Source: Tetradesmus obliquus
Taxonomy: Eukaryota > Chlorophyta > Chlorophyceae > Sphaeropleales > Scenedesmaceae
DNA length: 64,000 bases
Direction: 5' to 3'
Assembly: GCA_030272155.1 (NCBI GenBank)
Contig: CP126206.1
Location: forward strand, 3,275,001-3,339,000
Shown here one piece after another: positions 13,390 through 64,000 of the stretch. The number at the start of each line of letters is the position of its first letter. Within the stretch, counting starts at the first letter, position 1. The position numbers and the translations under genes are program-made. Under the pieces are notes generated by a model. The model was not told the origin of the DNA and searched no databases. It worked only from the letters and a program-made list of their open reading frames with translations.

Positions 13390-13995
13390 GGTGCCCAGAT
13401 TAAGTCTCTCAAACTGCTGGGATCAACAGAGAGCATCTGGGGTCCTTGACCCGTTTCCGTTTGGGTGCTCATGATTTACGTGTCTGCAGTGGCAGGTGGC
13501 AGCGACCACCTGTGCCGCGAAGGGACAGGGTGTGCCTACGCCCTGGCTGCCAGTCTGAGGTTGTTGAGGATGAGTTTCATATGGTCTTTGAGTGCCCTTT
13601 CTATGCACCAGTCCGCGAGCGATTTGCTATGTTGTTCGAACCCTTCGGGGACTCGTCACAAACATGGGCTACTATTGCTGGTTGCCACCTAGCAGGCGAT
13701 GACATGATCACTTTTATGAAGCAGGCACCTGCTTTGGTGGCTGCTTTTGTGCACTGCTGCTATCTGATGCGGTGTCACCCGGACACTGATCCTGAGGTTC
13801 TTCTGTCCTCTCAGGCTATTGCTCAAGCTATTGATGATGCTGATGAGTTTTTTTTCTGCGATTTCGTCTGACGGTTTGGACGATGATGAGTTGTTCTTCG
13901 ATGTTTCCTCCCCCTATGAGCCTCTCGTTGGCTCCTGACTGGGGTTCCCACTCCTCGTTGAGTGGAGCATGTAATGTAATGTAATGTTTGACTAG
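13390..13995 (+). mobile_element. LINE 3' fragment with zf-RVT-like domain and (TGTAA)n tail
   Basis: A reading frame ending at TGA 13869-13871 contains TRFRLGAHDLRVCSGRW, RVCLRPGCQSEVVEDEFH and MVFECPFYAPVRERF. Its Cys-Cys-His-Cys spacing is typical of the zinc-binding domain at the C-terminus of LINE reverse transcriptases (zf-RVT). A short 3' UTR (GAGCCTCTCGTTGGCTCC..) and a TGTAATGTAATG tail follow at 13960-13990. The reverse transcriptase itself is absent, so the copy is strongly 5'-truncated. The 3' end is essentially identical to the copy at 63125-63225, so both are recent. Confidence 0.75.
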
Positions 13996-54016: not shown

Positions 54017-57000
54017 ATGGCAGCTGCTGCACAGGCCACTCAGGAGCTAGCACAAGTTACAAAAATCATAGACAGCCAACTTAGCTCGTGAGTCCAGCCG
54101 GTGTTTATTTGTGGCCGGATCAAGTGCAGCAGCAGAGCCCTAGCCATCCATTGGTTGACTATGACTATTTGGCACCACAGTAAAGGAAGCCCAAGCAGCA
54201 TTTTGCCAAACACACCTTCCACCTACTGCTGCTGCAAATGTCTTTGCTGCTTTGATGCTCTGTGTATGGCTGGTTGTAATGGCATCAGCCAACGGCCGCC
54301 ATGTCACGCACCAGATCTTGATAATGTCCCAAAACAGCTGGGACAAGCTGAATAGCCACCACAGCGCAGCTGCCTCCGGTTTTGATGCAATCGTGCTGGC
54401 TTTTCTTGACTTGTTCTGCAAGTGTGCTTCCTGCAGGCTGCAGGAGCAGCTGGACCGCCTCAAGCTGTGCAAGGCTGTGCTGGTGCACCAACACAACAAG
54501 CAGTGAGTATGCAGCAATGTTGCTATAGCTTGCTTGGTGTCATGATGTTGGCTGAAGCAGAGAGCACAGCCTGTGCTGGCGTCAGCTGGCGGCAGTCAGC
54601 AGCAGGCGTGAGACAGCAGCGTCAGCAGGGTCAGACGTAAGCAGCACACGCAGCAGCACTGCATCACATGCAGCAGCTGCAGCAGCAGGTGGTACATGGG
54701 ACAGCTGCAGGCTCATGCACGCAGCACCAACAAGCTGGGTTGAGCTGTATGCTGCTGCGTGGGCTGCTTAGTACACGGCTTACCCACTAGTATGCTGGCC
54801 AACACCCCACGCTGATTCAAACACTCTGCAGGTATCAGGACAGGGCTACTCAAGCAGACGTTGGGCCACAAGTCAATCCCCTGCGGCGTGAGTGGCCTGC
54901 TCATCTATTTGGTGATACGTATGCTTCCCTAGCTGGCCTGCTACAGCCTAAGCCGTGGTTGCCTTGTTATTGTAAGCATAAGTAGCGATCTGCAACACAC
55001 CTGCCACAGCACTTGCCTGCTCAGCTGCTTCTGTCTGCTGGGAAGCAGCTTGCAGGAATCCTCCTTGCCACTGCTTGGCTCTTGAATGCCATAGTTCCTG
55101 CAAACAGCAGAGCTTCCTGCAAGCTGCAAAGTTTCCTGCAAGCTGAAGAACTCGGGCTCCAGAGTTGCTGCTTCAGCTACTGAAAACACAACAACTTAGG
55201 GTGCTGTGTGCTATGTGCTGCCCCTGCCTGCAGATGTGAAGCGCCTAGACCACAGCCGGCCGTTCACCTTTACAGCACCTAGCAAAAAAGTCAACTGGAA
55301 GCGGCTGCGGCAGCTGGACGTTGTGGCCATGGTGAGCAGCAGCGGCAGCAGCAGCAGTAGTTGCCGTGGCACTTGGGAACGGCATCAGTCTGACAGCGGC
55401 TGCTGAACCCCAGCATGTACATCGGCTGGTAAAGGTGGCGTCTGTAGCAACACCTTGAGGAGGTGTGCTGTCAAGTGGGTGGTTGCGCTTTGCGGCGCTG
55501 CTCGGCACCATCTTTTGCTGAGGCGGTCTTGTCTCCGCTGCCCCACTGCCCTGCAGGCGGCTGCTTCAGATGCTGCCGGCGTGATGCAGCTGTTTGAGGA
55601 TGTGGCGCATGGCGACGTCGAGCAAGGGAGCAGTTACGAGCTGAGCGAGGCCAGCCTGCTGAAGGTGGGTGGGTGGGTGGCCTGCAGGGAGCCTGGCACG
55701 TGTTCGAAAACAGTAACAGTACTAACATGAGAGATTTGGTGTTCAAGGGTGTGCATTGCGTTCTACGGTGCTCACTCTCCTTTTCTGGTCTCAGACCTTG
55801 TGTTCAACCTGTTGTGGCTCATACCTGCGGAGCTTATGTGCCACAACGTGTTGGCACGTTTTGGCATGTTCGTGCATCTAAGATGGTGCCCGGACCCACA
55901 TGTAACTATCCTCTCTCAGTATGATGCTGCCGAAGTAAGGCTTTGCTGCACTGGTTACAGCATATGCATGGGGCATGGTGACGTGGGGCAAGGGTGCATC
56001 TATGAGCTGAGCGAGGCAAGCCTGCTCAAGGTGTGGCAGGGGCAACCTGATTAGGGCCATGTTTCACCATGCGTAACCTGTTTCAGGCCATGTTGCACCC
56101 TGCGTAGCATCAGCAGGGCACGTTGGCAGGGCAGCATCTACGAGCTGTCAGAGGCCAGCCTGCTCAAGGTGGGGGCAGGGGCAAATGATCAGCGGGTCAA
56201 AACCATGTTGCACTGTGTTCATGTTCACCAGGGGCTTGAACTTCTGGGTTTCAAGATGTTTGTTCTGGGGCATATCAGACTCTGCTGCTGCACGCTGTAA
56301 AATTCACATACAACTGCTGCTGCTGCTGCCGCCACCTTTGCTGTGCCCGTCGTTCAACCTGTGCAGCTGCTGAAGCTGGCGCAGCTGCAGCTGCAGTACA
56401 TGCAGTACAAGCTGGAAGAAAAGGTGGAAGCTGAGCAGGCAGTAGAAGACAACACACTGGCCATAGCAGGTAATATGGCTTGTTATGGCCAAGTTGTTGT
56501 GTATATTGTGATCGTACATCTACTACTAGTATTCCATGCAACATGCAGTCAAAGCTGGAAGAGGTTGAAGAAGGCGTTGGAAGATGACTCGCATGCCATA
56601 GCAGGTGCGTCATCTGTCATTGTGTGGATGGTTGATGTAGCATGGTGCCATGCTGCTGTTCTGTGTGATGTGCAGTCTTTCCCTAGGCGACATTGCGCCG
56701 GCACTGGTTGTGCTACTGTTTTGAAAGCCACTGAGTGCCACCTGCTGCTGCTGCTGTCCTTGTTGTAGCCGGCCTGGCCAGCCTGGCACCACCCTCCCTG
56801 GGTGACATCCATCAGGGGCTGGGCGCGCTGGCTGCTGACATGAGCCAGCTGGGAAGCAGCAGAGTGGGCGGCCTCATACAGCAGGTGGGCGGCTGTTTGG
56901 TGTTTTTGTGTGGGGGGGGGGGGGGGGCACGTGCTGCTGCTGCTGCTGCTGCTGCTGCGTGTGTGTGGGCAGCCTCATCCAGCACGTGAGTGGATACTGC

Positions 57001-57435
57001 TCATCGAGCAGGTGGGCGGCTGTCCATTGTTGATAGTGCGCTGCTGCTGCATGACAAGGCCGGTTGGCTGGGCGCGCTGGCAGCTGACATGAGCCAGCTG
57101 GGAAGCACAAGTTGGTGGTGCAAGTATGACTGTCTTCTGTTGATGTAGCATATTTGTACCTATGGCCGTTGTGGTGCTGCAGGTGCGGCCAAGTCAGCTC
57201 TGCTGCAGGCTGCCTGGTTGTGTAGCCAGATACAAGGCTGCTACAGTTCCGTTTGCCAACACAGCACATGCCTGCCGTGCTGCTGCTGCTGCTGCTGCTG
57301 CTGCCGTAGGTGCGGGCGGAGGAGCGGTCTGCAGCCAAGTCGGCGCTGCTGCAGGCGATCCAGAAGAGCAAGCAGCAGGTGGACGTGAAATACGGTACAC
57401 AGCTGCAGCAGCCAGCCAGCCAGGCTGAAACTTGA
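54017..57435 (+). CDS. DZIP1/DZIP1L-like ciliary protein (short form)
   Basis: Eight exons read 54017-54087, 54437-54502, 54832-54887, 55234-55331, 55557-55664, 56367-56469, 56769-56884 and 57310-57435, in phase, 247 aa. The core at about 73-150 (RPFTFTAPSKKVNWKRLRQL-DVVAM, LFEDVAHGDV, LLKLAQLQLQYMQYKLEE) matches the DZIP1 N-terminal domain. In that domain a PF-F-x(n)-VDWR-x-x-x-x-(I/L)DV segment is followed by an (R)LAQL-x-x-EYLL-x-x-Q-like helix. DZIP1 proteins act at the basal body/transition zone in cilium formation. The usual C2H2 finger and long coiled coil are not visible here. The product is therefore much shorter than animal homologues. Either the algal form is minimal or further 3' exons were missed. 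The last intron region holds repeated terminal exons. Confidence 0.6.
55725..55918 (+). mobile_element. MITE-like element in an intron of the DZIP1-like gene
   Basis: This is about 190 bp, ATGAGAGA to TCTCTCA, homologous to 32973-33118 but with about 48 bp more inside. Both ends are shared, and the 8-bp inverted repeat is better preserved here. No coding capacity. Confidence 0.6.
55985..56168 (+). repeat. Two copies of exon 5 3' part (DZIP1-like gene)
   Basis: Segments encoding GSIYELSEASLLK with GTGTGG and GTGGGG donors lie at about 55990-56030 and 56125-56168. A diverged copy of exon 6 (SKLEEVEEG..) lies at 56547-56605. Confidence 0.75.
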
Positions 57436-57439
57436 CCGC

Positions 57440-57715
57440 CCTGATGGGGGTGCTGCACGCTGTACAGAAGAGCAAGCAGCAGGTGGATGTGAAGTACGGC
57501 ACACAGCTGCAGCAGCAGGCAGGCGGTCAACAGGAGCCTTGACCACGCTGCTGAGGGTGCTTTGGGCCGTTTAGCGAGGAGCAAGCAGCAGGTGGACGTG
57601 AAATACGGCACACAGCTGCAGCAGCAGACAGCCGGCCAGGCTGAGCCTTAACCGCCCTGATGAGGGATCTGCACGCAACTCAGAAGATCAAGCAGCACGT
57701 GGACTTGACGTGTGG
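57440..57715 (+). repeat. Three extra copies of the terminal exon (DZIP1-like gene)
   Basis: KSKQQVDVKYGTQLQQQ-type segments lie near 57465-57540 (then TGA) and 57580-57650 (then TAA), with a decayed copy near 57680-57715. The parent exon is 57310-57435. Confidence 0.8.
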
Positions 57716-58488
57716 CACACACAAAAAGCACGGCACACACAGCTGCAGCAGGCAGGCGTCTAGGCCGGGGCCCGGTGCGCACTGCCAGGCTAGGGAACAT
57801 GCCGTGCCCTGTTATACCTGTCAAGTGCAAGCGCTCAAATGCGCTGAAACTGCAAATTGTCGCTACTGAGGTTACAATGGAGTCATTTTTTGCACGTCTG
57901 ATTGATCAACTTGCTCAAATCAAAGGTTCAGCTGTATTTGGACCCAACTGTTGGGTGGCACTGCACGTTTGGTGCATGGGGTCCACACACCAGGCAACGC
58001 CTTTTGCTGTGTGGTTGTTTTCCTGTACATTGGTCTCTCCGGAATACAAAATCCTTTCAGCTCTTGTCGTACGCCGCACTGTCCTTGGCATCGAACAAGT
58101 CCCATGGCTGGTCCCATGGCGGAGCAGGGCACATGGTAGTGCAATAGCAGACAAGATGACTGTTGTGCTATGTGAAAAGACGTTGTAAACTCGATTCCTC
58201 TGTCGCTTGGCAGAGTCACTGCAGTGTTGTGTTGACCTTCCATGTGGAAGGTCACACCTGTGTTATTCGAAGGTGGGGCTGCGATATAAGCAAGGTGTCG
58301 ATGATCGCAAGTGAGGACCCTGTTGAGCTCATTCAGTCACAGCCATTGAAGTCAACGATGTTTCCGGACGTGATTGGCGTTTGAAAAAGTGATCTGCACG
58401 CCTTGCTGCCCATTGGTGACTGATCTGCGGTTCTCACAGCAGAGCAACCTTCTGCACCGTGCTGCTGGTGCTGCAAACCCGCCGAGCC
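57716..58488. other. Intergenic, upstream of the U-box/LRR gene
   Basis: An ORF spans 57712-58188 but no family or signal is recognisable. A short hairpin (GACCTTCCATGTGGAAGGTC) lies near 58232-58252. The promoter of the next gene is expected here. Confidence 0.45.
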
Positions 58489-61444
58489 ATGATCGAGTCA
58501 TTGGCAGTAACCGTCAAGTTGTGTGTGAGTATCGTCAAGCTGCTGGAAGAGGCGAAGCACAACAAGAAGGAGTGCGGGAGCTTGAAGCGTTTGGTGGAGA
58601 CGATCAGGGCCTTTCTGCAAGGCCTCGAAGCAGAAGCGATATCTAGTGCTGGCAAGGAAGCTTTACGTGAGTTGACCTGAGTTCTGCTGCTAGCTGCAGC
58701 CGGTGCCTGTTGCCAAAGCAAACACAGCTTGTACTGCGCAGTACAAATGGGACTGTGGCAGGCTTACCTCAGCACATGTCACACAGCAGACACAGCCAAA
58801 ATCAACCTGCTGAATTAGCAGCAGTGGCAGCTATTGCTTCTGCTGCACCTGCGGTCCAGGTCTCTACTCAGTCCCAGCTGCTCCCAGTGTGTTGCTGCAG
58901 CCAACCCTTGCCACACGGCACGGACATTACCACCTACACCCGTACATGACGCTGTTATGACTTGCTGCACCATACCCCACGCTTGCAGGCCATGTGCATG
59001 AGCAGCTGCAGTGTGCTCAGGGGCTGCTGGCACGCGTGGCCAACACCGGACCCCTGATGTCGCTGCTGTCCGCTGGCGACTTCCGCAGAGAGTTCCTGCA
59101 CATCCACCGCGACCTAAGCGGCGCATTCACGCTGCTTGGCACAGGAGAAAAACTGCTGGTGGGTGTCGGCTGGTTTGCTGCTGCGGCAGTATGGATGGCA
59201 GCAGGCCTGACGAAAAACTGCTGGTGGGTGTTGGCTGGTTTGCTGCTGCAGCAGCAGCATGAGTGGCAGCAGGCCTGACGCAGCAGGCTGGATTGATGTG
59301 AGCGGTGCGTTCACGCTGCTGAGCATGGTGCATTAGCTGCTTGTGGGTTTAGGCTGGTTTCTGCTGCTGCGGCAGCAGCAGCAGAACCAGCAGCAGCACC
59401 AGTAGCAGCAGTAGCAGTACACCGCATGATGTCTAATTATCTATGCAGCATTGCTGCCAGCACAGCAATGGCCTGCCTAGCATGCTGGCCTGCTGTCTCA
59501 CTCACTCACTCGCTCAGTACAATGCCCTGCATCACAAAACGCTGCAGCTGGCTCCCCTAGGCCTGTCGTCAGCGATTTCCTGCAAGCTTCTGCTGCTCCC
59601 TGCGTCGCTGTGAACGATTGGTACTGAACTCGCCCCCGCCGGCTGTTGCAGGGCCAGGAGCGCATGCAGCGTAAGCTGTCAGCGCTGCGTCCCGCCATAG
59701 TCGCCTGCAGGTGTGCGCTGCCTTGCCTGTGAGTGACTGTCACTGACAGTCATCCCTGCCTATTCTTGCAGGGCCAGGAGCGCATGCAGCGCGAGCTGTC
59801 AGCGCTGCGTGCTGAGCTGCGCTCCTCAGGCAGTGGCTTCTTCTCAGAGCAGGAGGTCATCGGAAGCAGGTGAGCTCTCCTGCAAGGTTGCTGCTGCCAC
59901 ATTTGTCACGGAAAAACTGTGTGATATCACCTATCGGAAATGAACTTGTCCAACCAGCTGCATATGAACTGTGCAACGCTAAGACGATATTGCTGTAGAG
60001 AGAGGGTGCATAACAGTGAACACCTGCTGCAAATCTGGCGTTGTCCTGCAAGCTGCAGAGGAATGGTCGCACTGTACACATGCTGCGGAGCTGTTATCAC
60101 TCTTCACACGTGCTTCCTGCAAGCCATCATCCTTCGGTGCGCTTGCAAATAGCCACCAATCAGCCGCAATTAAGCACGCCGTGCGGCTGCTGCTGCTGCT
60201 GCCCCGTTATGCTACCCGCCCTTCCCTTTGCCACACCTGCAGCCTGCGCGAAGTGGCTGCGGCTTGCCAGGAGCAGCGCTTGCCTGCACAGGCTGTGCAC
60301 CGGCTGCTGCTAGAGGAGCTGGATCAGGTGCCTGAGGTGGCAGCACTAGCGTCGATTGACCTGCTGCAGGTGAGGTGCAGGGTTGGCTGCTGCAGCTGTC
60401 TGTTTGGGCAGGTGTTGTTGTATGGCTACAAAGCAGCCACTGAAATCAACATGTTGTATTTAATCGTGCCTGACCCACGTGTGGTAACGTCTCCCTTCCT
60501 CGATCCCTCTCTGTCTCTATGTATCTCTTTCTGCATAATGTCACCATCGTCTTGTTCTACTTTGTGCAGGAGCTGCACGAGCTGCAGGTGGTGGCGATGT
60601 ACGGCAGCGAGGGCCAGCAGGCGGCTTGCAAGTCAAAGACAGGCAGCAGCGAGAAGGCGCTTGTGGAGCAGGTGGGTGCAGCAGTGCTATGCAGTGGACC
60701 CTGCACGACTGCAGACATGCATCGATGGAATGGTACTTTTATTTTGCTGGTGGCATGGCAGCAGGCACAGAAGTAAACATCAACTATTGTCATGAATCTA
60801 TCATATCTGTTGTGAGGAGCTGCAAACATGAAAGTACATTGGGCAAAGTGTACAAAAGGTACACTGGGTGGGTGCACGCGAGCAACCAGGAGTCACTGCA
60901 GCTGCAACATCAAGGTGCAGCTCCCAGCAGTTGCTGCAAGCACACTGCACGTTATTCTGACCGCATTTCGACGTTTGTGCCCTGCTCTGCGTGCTGCAGC
61001 TGTGTGCAGCGCTTGCGCCCAGGGCAGCACTGGCTGAGCAACCCCTCAGCCCATCTGCAGCAGCACAGGCCCCTGACGCCTACCTCTGCCCTATAAGCAG
61101 GGACATCATGCTTGACCCACTGCTTCTAGTGGAGACAGGGCAGAGCTATGAGGCAGCATACATCCGGCGCTGGCTAGAGGCACACAGCACGTGCCCACTG
61201 ACCAGCAAGCAGCTGTCCTGCAAGCAGCTAGCATTCAACTATGCACTGCGCAGCAGCATTCAGCAGTGGGCGGAGCAGCATGGCGTGCAGCTGCCGCCTG
61301 CGCCGCAGCACACGCCTCTGCTGCAGCACAAGGCAGCTATGGGCACCACGCACAGACCAGCCCCTGTCACTCCTCCAGATGTGGCAAGCAGCAACAAAGA
61401 CCAGGCCCGGAGGCAGACTGTGCTTGCCACGCAGCAGCAGCAAA

Positions 61445-61477
<33 letters not shown>

Positions 61478-63129
61478 GGCAGCAGGATGTTAAGATTGGC
61501 ATATTTAGCAACGGCAAGTCACAGGCAGATGACCTGGAGTCCATGCAGGGCAAGCGCCGCATCAGGTGTACGCGCACGAGCTGGGCTGTGGCGCTGATAC
61601 TGCTGGTGGTGGCAGGCGGGGCAGCTGTGGGGCTGGGCGTGGGCCTGACGCGAGGTGAGCACAACAGCAGATAGCTTGCTTCCTGTTTGCAGCCAGGGCG
61701 CAAGAGTCCGCTTTATGTTTCAGCAAGCTTCGAACAGTCCAGCACATGATCATACTGCAGTGATGCGCTCGGCACGAGCTTCTTCGTAACTGTGGTAAAG
61801 GCCAGCAGGGTGGCTTGTGAGGTCGTGGGCCTGGAGCGAGGTGTGCTGAGCCATGGATGATCTTCCTTGAGCATGCTGCATGCTCACTCAGGCTGAGTCG
61901 GCGTTTGGCGGTTGTTTGTAGTACGTCATGACTGATCAGCTTGTCCAAGCGTTCATGTGCCTCCATTCCCTTCCTGGCAACCTGCCATCCTGATCGTTTC
62001 GCCCAGACATGGGGACCGCATGATTTGCAGGCTTCCAGTGATGGAGTAACGCTTCTTGCAAGTCAATTGCAGCCTTTGCAGCTGTTCACGCCTTTTTGCT
62101 GAGCCCTTGCACCACTCTCTGACTAAACCATTCTGTGCAGGCGCAAAGCGTGGCTCTGCCACCACGCAGCCCACACCCGCAGGCCCTGCCCTTGTGCAGC
62201 CGAAGACTGTGGGCCCGCAGTCCAGCCCTGCGCCTCCACAGCCCAAGCCTGCAGCCCCGCAGTACCCCCCTGGCAGCTGGCAGGCCCAGCTGGAGGCACT
62301 GATGGCAGTGAAGGAGGCTGTTGACCCAGACAGCACGGTGCTGACGGAGTGGACCCGAGAGCGAGGCGCCCATGGCAGCTACTGCTATTGGAGAGGAATA
62401 GTGTGTATGAAGCGTCCTAACATCACAAGCCTCATCCTGCGTGGCAAGTACGATGCAGACCATGGTCAGGCAAGTTTTCAGGATTCGGCCAACACTCCAG
62501 GGTTGAGGGGCACCTTGCCAGCTGGGAGAGACATGGCTGGTCTGAGCCTGCTGAGCGTGATCGAAATTAGCAACCAGCCTGGCATCACCGGCACGCTACC
62601 TGATGACTGGTCAGGCCTTGAACACTTGACCAGCATCAGGCTCAGCAACACCTCTTTGACAGGCAGCATACCTCAAACCTGGGGCAGCTGGAGCAAGCTG
62701 CAACACCTGATTTTGCAAGCCCAGAATTTGAGTGGGGAACTTCCTAACAGCCTAGGAAATCTGACCTCAGTTTGGGTGCTTGAGATATCTAACACCGCTG
62801 TCACTGGCACACTGCCTGCATCACTGGGTCGCCTAGCAGAGCTTTCTGAATTGACTTTGAACAACAACGTGCTGGCTGGCACGTTGCCGGACTCGTGGAA
62901 GGCACTGACTAAGTTGAGCACTTTAAATCTCTCCCGCAATGCACTCAATGGCATTGTGCCTGCCTCGTGGTCAGCCATGCGTAGCCTGGTCAATGTTTGG
63001 TTTTCCAACAACCAAGGGCTGTCAGGCTGCCTCCCATGGATTTGGTTGCCGCGCTTTATTGTGTCTCCGTCGGCCTTCGACGAGTCCAACTACAGAAACA
63101 CCAACATCTCAGGATTCTGCTCCCCATGA
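58489..63129 (+). CDS. Putative transmembrane U-box E3 ligase with MLKL-NTD-like N-terminus and LRR ectodomain
   Basis: Seven exons read 58489-58666, 58989-59158, 59772-59869, 60243-60369, 60570-60671, 61000-61654 and 62141-63129, in phase, 772 aa. Residues 1 to about 200 are all-helical (VKLLEEAKHNKKECGSLKRL, EFLHIHRDLSGAFTLLG). They resemble the N-terminal four-helix domain of MLKL/ADR1-type and plant U-box proteins. Residues 251-320 are a U-box: CPISRDIMLDPLLLVETGQS, YIRRWLEAHSTCPLTSKQL. A polyQ stretch and a basic cluster (KRRIRCTR) precede one TM helix (about 420-442). A Pro-rich stalk leads to an LRRNT-like cap (about 489-533, ALMAVKEAV, YCYWRGIVC). About eight plant-type LRRs (L-x-x-L-x-L-x-x-N-x-L-x-G-x-(L/I)P) follow to the end. 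By the positive-inside rule the U-box is cytosolic and the LRR outside. The stop lies at a LINE insertion. Confidence 0.7.
59160..59720 (+). repeat. Exon copies within the U-box/LRR gene
   Basis: Tail copies of exon 2 (EKLLVGVGW-type with GTGGGT donors) lie at 59200-59240 and 59295-59345. A copy of exon 3 (GQERMQRKLSALRPAIVAC) with acceptor and donor lies at 59652-59711, before the constitutive exon at 59772. Confidence 0.75.
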
Positions 63130-63225
63130 GCCTCTCGTTGGCTCCTGACTGGGGTTCCCACTCCTCGTTGAGTGGAGCATGTAATGTAATGTAATGTATG
63201 TAATGTGATGTAATGTAATGAATTA
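63125..63225 (+). mobile_element. LINE 3' end forming the end of the U-box/LRR gene
   Basis: From GAGCCTCTCGTTGGCTCC to the TGTAATGTAATG tail it is virtually identical to the LINE terminus at 13917-13990. Only about 75 bp of element plus the tail was inserted. The junction falls on the stop codon of the LRR frame (..GFCSP-TGA). The tail supplies several TGTAA pentamers, the canonical green-algal poly(A) signal. Confidence 0.75.
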
Positions 63226-64000
63226 GTCTGACCATTATCTTGCTACCAAGATGCTTGTCACCGTCGCTGTGGTGTGAGTGCCAGTGCAAGTGCTGCTGTG
63301 CTGTCCATCATGTTGTTTTAGTGACTGCTGGCCCACATTGCCGTTACAGTCGTTCTGGCCTCCACAAATGCACGTGGGTTCATATGCGTGGGGTGGTGGT
63401 GTCACAGCAGCGTTCATGAGCAGGCCAACTATATTGTTATGTTGCTTAGTCTTGACCCTGCATGCGTGATGCGTGCGCCTCGCAACTGTGAATGTGGTCT
63501 GGCCGCCAGATCTGGCATGCGACATGGTCATTGCCACACGGGGCACCAATCTAAGCATTTACAGTCACTGCGCCGACGTGAACTGCAGCTCACGTGAACA
63601 GAGATTATGAATTGCATGTATGGTCAAGTTTTGGCTACAGGGCTGTGTATAGCATCATGTTGCGGTTTCAGCCTTTGATCCCTTTACAAACAACCGCCAT
63701 TGGCTTCAGTGTGTATGTATGAAGAGTTGCAGATAGCTGGTGTATGAAGTGGACAGCTGCAGCTGGTGATGGGGTGCCCTGTGCACTGCTGCGGCTTTGC
63801 TCGAATCCCTAGGAACACACACTTGTACAGATTGCTGCGCACTGGCCATAGTGGCCATATCGCATGTGTGACGTGCCACCCCCACTATTACATCAATGTA
63901 AATATTGTTGGCATACCGGTAAAGAATGCAATGGGTTGCATGCAGGCAGAGAAGTGCACGTGATAAGTCGTGTGTGTTTGACTGGGTATGCCACAATTGT
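63226..64000. other. Downstream flank, no gene recognised
   Basis: Short ORFs on both strands have no recognisable domain. It may hold the pre-insertion 3' UTR of the U-box/LRR gene or the start of another intergenic region. Confidence 0.45.

Follow-up and report, generated by a model that had tools for sequence, protein, structure and literature searches.

A predicted fusion of a U-box, a membrane helix and a plant-type LRR ectodomain in the green alga Tetradesmus obliquus

A gene on contig CP126206.1 of the green alga Tetradesmus obliquus (assembly GCA_030272155.1) is predicted to carry in a single chain an MLKL_N-like N-terminal domain, a U-box, one transmembrane (TM) helix and plant-type LRRs. 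The favoured interpretation, held with somewhat better than even confidence, is that the product is a U-box E3 ligase that crosses the membrane once in type II orientation, with a helical adaptor in the cytosol and a plant-type LRR ectodomain, and in which ubiquitination would be driven by a ligand. The window is the whole analysed stretch of 64,000 nucleotides (contig positions 3,275,001 to 3,339,000); the features of this gene are given in window positions and all lie on the + strand.

Seven exons between 58489 and 63129, when re-derived from the DNA with predicted splicing, join into one open frame of 772 aa that has one terminal stop and no internal stops. The six predicted introns are all GT-AG, and every donor fits GTGNGN. 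The assumed frame is stop-free and has the top codon score of the three in all seven exons, the weakest scores being those of exon 4 (-0.05, still the top of the three frames) and exon 2 (0.005); exons 3 and 5 have additional stop-free frames beside the assumed one, and all six introns score below 0 in all frames. The seven-exon frame proposed in the initial annotation is thereby upheld. Searches with Rfam (56000-64000) and NCBIfam returned no matches. The start of exon 3 is duplicated at 59652..59710 (59 nt, same phase), within a direct duplication of 59608-59690 versus 59727-59810 at 81%, and this copy is possibly an alternative exon or a dead one. At the other end of the gene, a dispersed repeat with a (TGTAA)n tail (63122..63220) starts within the final codons and includes the stop region; it has at least 39 further copies (40 of 527 candidates scored), with one more at 13912-13990. 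The duplicated exon and the repeat inserted at the stop, together with Gln repeats and tandem arrays nearby, would suit a functionless gene that is decaying or was assembled recently. This explanation is improbable, being opposed by the 772 codons free of internal stops, by the in-frame codon preference of every exon and by an LRR end (..FC) that is the same in four relatives.

Exon 6 (61000..61654) encodes the U-box, a Gln-rich linker, a basic flank and the TM helix, as indicated by Pfam, hydropathy and codon score. The U-box (61069..61281, aa 249-319) scores 54.7 bits with PF04564 (cut-off 21.4) and was recovered at the same place in the genome-wide search; it had been annotated at 251-320, so that its presence stands and its limits move by one or two residues. 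Its best solved matches are of plant type, led by U-box protein 12 (7xed, E 2.2e-17) and followed by 7c96 and 1t1h, which we take to be PUB13 and PUB14. A Pfam scan of the 772 aa found no ARM repeat family at E up to 1 and no kinase domain. Exon 7 (62141..63129) encodes a Pro-rich stalk, an LRR N-cap, about seven LRRs, a C-cap and the stop. The cap is an LRRNT_2 domain (62284..62406, aa 492-532; PF08263 24.1 bits, cut-off 20.7) with the motif CYWRGIVC, and the seven LRR units (62545..63048, aa 579-746) have 24-residue spacing and match LRR_8 at 40.2 bits (cut-off 27). Among the best 60 of 151 matches, the best solved matches of this exon are ectodomains of the plant LRR receptor kinases GSO1, FLS2, MIK2 and TDR. 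The LRRs that had been claimed are borne out at 492-746.

Between the U-box and the LRRNT_2 domain, as had been proposed, lies a hydropathy peak (61585..61641, aa 421-439; Kyte-Doolittle 2.53 over 19 residues) that is predicted to be a TM helix. Its 15-residue flanks contain five K+R on the U-box side versus three on the LRR side, which is a modest charge difference. Residues 1-19 (1.77) form the next distinct peak in the 15 best Kyte-Doolittle windows, and the orientation would change if they acted as a signal or anchor. Sequons number six in the LRR part and zero in the first 418 residues; this is no excess over composition (P 0.11), and they were dropped as topology evidence because they are not significant.

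The combination of these domains looks unique in this genome, judging from the matches listed. In 20 of the 21 U-box places there is no listed LRR within 58 kb, the sole exception being this gene, whose LRR exon match begins 1.07 kb after the start of the U-box (an entry of 417 bp in the distance table is the gene's own TM-exon piece, which was part of the query, and not the LRR exon). LRR places without a U-box are many elsewhere in the genome. The LRR list was merged by hand from 117 and 29 matches, and the first search scored 107 of 308 candidates, so that the LRR counts are lower bounds. A RING survey of 56 of 61 matches, leaving out three pieces beside C15 RINGs, one C8 piece (1.2 kb from a listed RING) and a C6 place on the U-box list, found a same-strand listed LRR closer than 20 kb at one place of 56 (distance 5.5 kb). 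This candidate RING-LRR fusion, at L050, was rejected, since by eye it consists of separate RING, RRM and LRR genes, the LRR gene having its own signal-peptide-like start. Among TKL kinase places (106 of 125 matches, 19 neighbouring pieces being left out), none has a listed LRR on its own strand at a distance of up to 20 kb, and two have one on the opposite strand; with 128 of 511 candidates scored this count is a lower bound, and an absence of LRR receptor kinases is therefore not demonstrated. A literature search on compound LRR/U-box names returned no such fusion, and a broader search found no LRR-U-box fusion in titles or abstract openings.

The fusion depends on the splicing of intron 6 (61655..62140, 486 nt, GTGAGC...GCAG). 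The join 61654/62141 is predicted, and it is supported indirectly by the LRR exon, which has neither a start nor a signal peptide of its own, and by a relative on the same contig. Read upstream, the exon stays open as far as 62050 and shows no Met on the way; the first Met (aa 498) is already part of the LRR cap, and no signal peptide was seen by eye. In the relative (L048, 1363-2472) a basic flank, a TM helix and an LRR-cap-like segment stand in one frame; its cap-like segment scores 14.4 bits, under the LRRNT_2 cut-off of 20.7, its TM helix does not match that of this gene, and it has no U-box. Inspection by eye of the 9 kb that precede the L048 gene (L049) revealed no U-box or LRR. TGTAA does not occur in intron 6, an absence that was dropped as evidence because only about 0.4 occurrences are expected by chance.

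If intron 6 were retained, or if the transcript ended within it, translation would stop after six codons (61672-61674, ending ...LTRGEHNSR*). The main product would then be a tail-anchored U-box ligase of the ER or of the mitochondrial or plastid envelope, with the TM helix at its extreme C-terminus, and the LRR exon would be included only occasionally or as an alternative 3' exon. Such a product is unlikely. A stop so soon after exon 6 is the textbook layout of a tail anchor, and U-box proteins containing a TM domain are reported, in the available part of one study, from C. reinhardtii (PMC4378952); however, this explanation leaves the LRR exon without a start, the relative L048 joins TM and cap-like segment in one frame, and intron 6 has splice sites like those of the other five introns. 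A slightly less probable explanation is that two genes have been wrongly joined, one encoding a U-box and the other LRRs, the latter with one or more unrecognised first exons. The parts are indeed separate elsewhere, in the 20 other U-box places and the many LRR places described above, and the stand-alone LRR gene at L050 has an ATG and its signal-peptide-like start in the cap exon. Against this, the ATG exons of the right phase in intron 6, taken as single-piece first exons, are only 7-21 codons long and none is signal-peptide-like by eye; the open but Met-less upstream reach of the LRR exon and the linkage seen in L048 also argue for a single gene.

In the N-terminal half, an MLKL_N match (PF22215, cut-off 27) covers aa 9-109 with 29.4 bits in the whole protein and 35.0 bits for residues 1-132. 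When residues 1-132 were exactly reversed or, in six controls, shuffled, the match disappeared (0 of 7). The domain starts in exon 1 (58489..58666, aa 1-59 plus one base, donor GTGAGT, top codon frame), and the remainder is in exon 2 (58989..59158, to about 59137), supported by profile and codon frame. The linker that follows is probably helical; it is encoded by exons 3 (59772..59869), 4 (60243..60369) and 5 (60570..60671), which were assigned by frame and codon score, and no Pfam family exceeds its cut-off at aa 117-250. The U-box, LRRNT_2 and MLKL_N models, proposed as a check, are all over their curated cut-offs. Thus the order MLKL-like domain, U-box, TM helix and LRRs given in the initial annotation agrees with the profiles, as does its MLKL-like N-terminus, whereas the ADR1-like character also suggested there does not, since Rx_N is below its cut-off (15.3 bits versus 27.7, E 0.02) and RPW8 is unmatched. 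No UND-named model among the Pfam profiles matched before the U-box. Nothing else in the genome matches the part that precedes aa 207, and the role of the N-terminal half consequently rests on one profile match; a genome search with MLKL_N gave zero matches and is uninformative, because the intron-split domain of the window itself was likewise missed. The putative bundle, which may be equivalent to the UND of plant PUB ligases, probably acts in oligomerisation or as a substrate adaptor, the role of the UND in those ligases.

The MLKL_N match could also point to a membrane sensor, in which LRR binding would cause the MLKL/HeLo-like bundle to permeabilise membranes or drive cell death while the U-box limits its level. 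There is little probability in this; the match spans the bundle only and a kinase domain is absent, neither Rx_N nor RPW8 reaches its cut-off, and a domain ahead of the U-box is ordinary in plants, as in PUB13, whose order is given in the available part of the source as UND-U-box-ARM (PMC4449551). A cell-death role is not needed for the ligase reading. Literature searches on MLKL with U-box and MCAfunc found nothing, and those on MLKL/HeLo with U-box in green algae found, in the parts available, NLR work only.

According to the favoured model of a ligand-driven membrane ligase, the N-terminal half would be cytosolic, with the helical domain followed by the U-box, to which a charged E2 would be recruited. 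The single helix would span the membrane with its more positive flank on the U-box side, placing the stalk and the capped LRRs in the extracellular space or in the lumen of the secretory pathway. There the LRRs may bind a peptide, a glycan or a partner receptor; binding would cluster or re-orient the protein, and the U-box would then ubiquitinate itself and neighbouring membrane proteins, setting their removal. A bolder proposal, which can be offered only tentatively, is that the gene represents a class of kinase-free plant-type LRR receptors signalling by ubiquitination, with a same-chain U-box under outside control and the MLKL/HeLo-like bundle as switch or oligomeriser.

The predicted protein can be compared with several known systems. 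Plant LRR sensors are usually attached to a kinase. The LRRNT_2 cap and 24-residue LRRs are shared with plant LRR receptor kinases and receptor-like proteins, but here the polarity is predicted to be opposite (C-terminus outside), no signal peptide precedes the LRRs, and the output domain is a U-box instead of a kinase. Plant UND-U-box-ARM ligases (PUB12/PUB13/PUB14, SPL11 type) also have a domain before the U-box, and the nearest solved U-boxes are from plants; their ARM repeats are C-terminal, whereas this protein has a TM helix and LRR ectodomain instead. The likeness to MLKL/HeLo-like bundles lies in the PF22215 match, MLKL-type effectors differing by a (pseudo)kinase domain that the Pfam scan did not find here, and ADR1/RPW8-type helpers by an RPW8 or Rx_N domain over cut-off. 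The further suggestion of soluble plant U-box ligases overstates the case for algae, as TM domains are reported, in the available part of the study, in most of the C. reinhardtii U-box proteins that belong to subfamily I (PMC4378952). This CrPUB subfamily resembles the present protein in combining U-box and TM in one algal protein, and the 13 additional domain types listed for CrPUB in that portion of the text do not include LRR (PMC4378952). In the same excerpt LRR is one of the additional domains given for Arabidopsis and rice U-box proteins, and a U-box with LRR is therefore not unheard of (PMC4378952); in a rice U-box survey (PMC8584879) the word LRR occurs once, in a reference title.

As far as the partial sources go, PUB12/13 ubiquitinate FLS2 and PUB30/31 ubiquitinate ERECTA in land plants, where the PUB ligases are separate proteins that are recruited to activated LRR receptors. 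Single-pass ligases whose ectodomain steers receptor ubiquitination are represented by ZNRF3/RNF43 of the PA-TM-RING type, which have a RING, a PA domain and type I topology; the likeness would be one of way of working only, this protein having a U-box, LRRs and a predicted type II topology. On the best reading, a single chain would perform the task for which land plants use LRR receptor kinases together with PUB12/13-type ligases. If true, outside sensing would be linked directly to protein removal, a receptor output other than a kinase would exist in a lineage reported, in partial sources, to have few receptor kinases, and a simple system would be available in which to ask if an ectodomain can switch a U-box directly. 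In that case the gene would be a 'Rosetta stone' fusion of natural origin, uniting an LRR receptor with the PUB ligase that land plants make as a separate protein.

The predicted gene at 58489..63129 (forward strand) was rebuilt from the DNA as seven exons encoding 772 residues without an internal stop; its splicing is predicted, and all six introns are GT-AG with GTGNGN donors. Codon log-odds were trained on 2583 codons in eight frames of this genome, most of them LRR frames, which biases the scores towards exon 7. They ranked the assumed frame first of three in every one of the seven exons, though exon 4 reached just -0.05 and exon 2 just 0.005, a narrow margin in both; all six introns scored negative in every frame. 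On all evidence combined, the open frame across seven exons is beyond chance, which bears out the single 772-residue frame of the initial annotation. A phase-compatible duplicate of the exon 3 start lies about 120 bp upstream of exon 3 (59652-59710) and could be a mutually exclusive exon.

Pfam places MLKL_N (residues 9-109), U-box (249-319), LRRNT_2 (492-532) and LRR_8 (within the LRR repeats) above their curated cut-offs, so that the claimed U-box and LRR domains and their order are confirmed, and all three profiles proposed for checking (U-box, LRRNT_2 and the MLKL N-terminus) are matched. The claim of an MLKL/ADR1-like N-terminus fared unevenly. Its MLKL_N match, though above the cut-off of 27, is a weak one: 29.4 bits when the full chain is scanned and 35.0 bits for residues 1-132 by themselves. 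An exact reversal and six shuffles of residues 1-132 gave no MLKL_N match (0 of 7); Rx_N falls below its cut-off (15.3 vs 27.7), further than DUF7792 does in the same region (20.0 vs 27). Residues 117-250 match no Pfam family above cut-off, and residues 1-225, with three prolines, are probably helical. The ectodomain is short, at about seven LRRs.

The proposed membrane helix between U-box and LRRs coincides with the hydropathy maximum at residues 421-439 (2.53; next among the windows listed, residues 1-19 at 1.77). More K+R per 15 flanking residues on the U-box side (5) than on the LRR side (3) weakly favours an inside U-box. The LRR cap carries a cysteine pair, CYWRGIVC; in plant LRR proteins such a pair is located on the oxidising side. 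Sequons (none in residues 1-418, six in the last 333) are near the composition expectation (P 0.11) and were therefore not used as topology evidence.

The doubtful join is 61654/62141, from the U-box/TM exon (exon 6, 61000..61654) to the LRR exon (exon 7, 62141..63129). Unspliced, exon 6 reads through to ...LTRGEHNSR and a stop at 61672-61674, and its product would be tail-anchored. The LRR frame, however, is open upstream only to 62050, a stretch without Met or signal peptide, and the right-phase ATG exons within intron 6 (61655..62140) span 7-21 codons, none signal-peptide-like by eye. An independent LRR gene in this genome is modelled by the stand-alone gene of stretch L050, whose cap exon bears an ATG and a signal-peptide-like start. 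In a relative that lies on this contig at a distance of 210 kb (L048 1363-2472), CCDKSRGC-TM-GTRRSG is followed in a single open frame by an LRR-cap-like segment. That segment aligns with the gene's LRR cap (37.5%, E 1e-4), but its profile score of 14.4 falls short of the Pfam threshold of 20.7; the two TM segments do not match each other. Because the LRR exon lacks a start, intron 6 shows by eye no signal-peptide-like ATG exon and L048 joins a TM to a cap-like segment, splicing of exon 6 to exon 7 is favoured.

L048 1363-9376 (C16:3124862-3132875) apparently holds two tandem LRR genes. The first, in which a long low-complexity N-terminal part, TM helix and cap-like segment share one frame, is possibly a second type II TM-LRR protein lacking a U-box; no U-box place lies nearby among the matches listed genome-wide.

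The gene's last codons and stop overlap the first part of a dispersed repeat (63122-63220) that has a (TGTAA)n tail and of which another copy lies at 13912-13990 and at least 39 further copies exist (40 of 527 candidates scored); we infer a resemblance to a retroelement 3' end. Since the LRR frames of four relatives (L039, L040, L041, L048; 16 frames printed, some non-terminal) also end at ..FC or within two residues of it, the insertion seems to lie at the gene's natural end. A tandem array at 57347-57708 (109-bp unit, 3.4 copies) perhaps consists of copies of an exon end from an upstream gene. Two other stretches, L041 7867-9366 and L045 7392-8156, share a Cys/Trp-rich stretch, CSWGxSWGCxGTFRxxYGAA, ahead of LRR frames; by eye it recalls papain-like proteases, and a Pfam scan of L041 gave LRR models only.

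Exon-by-exon searches of the genome (104.66 Mb, 17 contigs; window C16:3275001-3339000), whose U-box, LRR, RING and TKL counts are lower bounds, listed an LRR within 58 kb of one of 21 U-box places, namely this gene, where the LRR exon match begins 1.07 kb past the U-box start. Visual inspection of three of the other 20 showed WD40-like repeats downstream of the U-box in L015, ankyrin-like frames ahead of the U-box in L016, and no recognisable partner in the stretch examined of L008. No LRR fusion was found among the RING and TKL kinase matches listed genome-wide.

The U-box/TM/LRR architecture is likely, a new domain combination from known parts and no new kind of machine. With the anatomy as observed and each functional step borrowed from PUB and LRR biology, the chain would be a type II membrane ligase: outside the membrane, the LRRs would engage either a ligand or a partner; on the inner side, the MLKL_N-like bundle and the U-box would be brought together or close to a neighbour; E2-ubiquitin would then be recruited, and the targets to be ubiquitinated and removed would be adjacent membrane proteins or the same chain. 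An ectodomain of about seven repeats would fit a role as co-receptor-like partner no less than one in ligand binding. The protein could instead, though less probably, function in cell death, a reading for which the MLKL_N profile match is the one argument.

The closest solved chains are U-box protein 12 (7xed; next 7c96 and 1t1h) for the U-box and GSO1, FLS2, MIK2 and TDR for the ectodomain (best 60 of 151 matches). In a word search of the papers available, none of six compound names, among them LRR-U-box and U-box-LRR, occurred; in a rice survey (PMC8584879) the single occurrence of the word LRR is inside a reference title. For C. reinhardtii, PMC4378952 reports 30 U-box proteins that carry, between them, 13 types of additional domain, TM included and LRR absent; for U-box proteins of Arabidopsis/rice it names LRR as one of the added domains, so that a U-box combined with an LRR is no novelty in the literature. 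Few receptor kinases are given by a review for the chlorophytes that it names (PMC10868138). In land plants, the UND is described as determining substrate specificity (PUB18/19 vs PUB22/23; PMC8875423), ERECTA is ubiquitinated by PUB30/31, which are without a UND (PMC9873567), and PUB12/13, of which PUB13 is UND-U-box-ARM, interact with BAK1 and are brought to FLS2, which they polyubiquitinate (PMC4449551).
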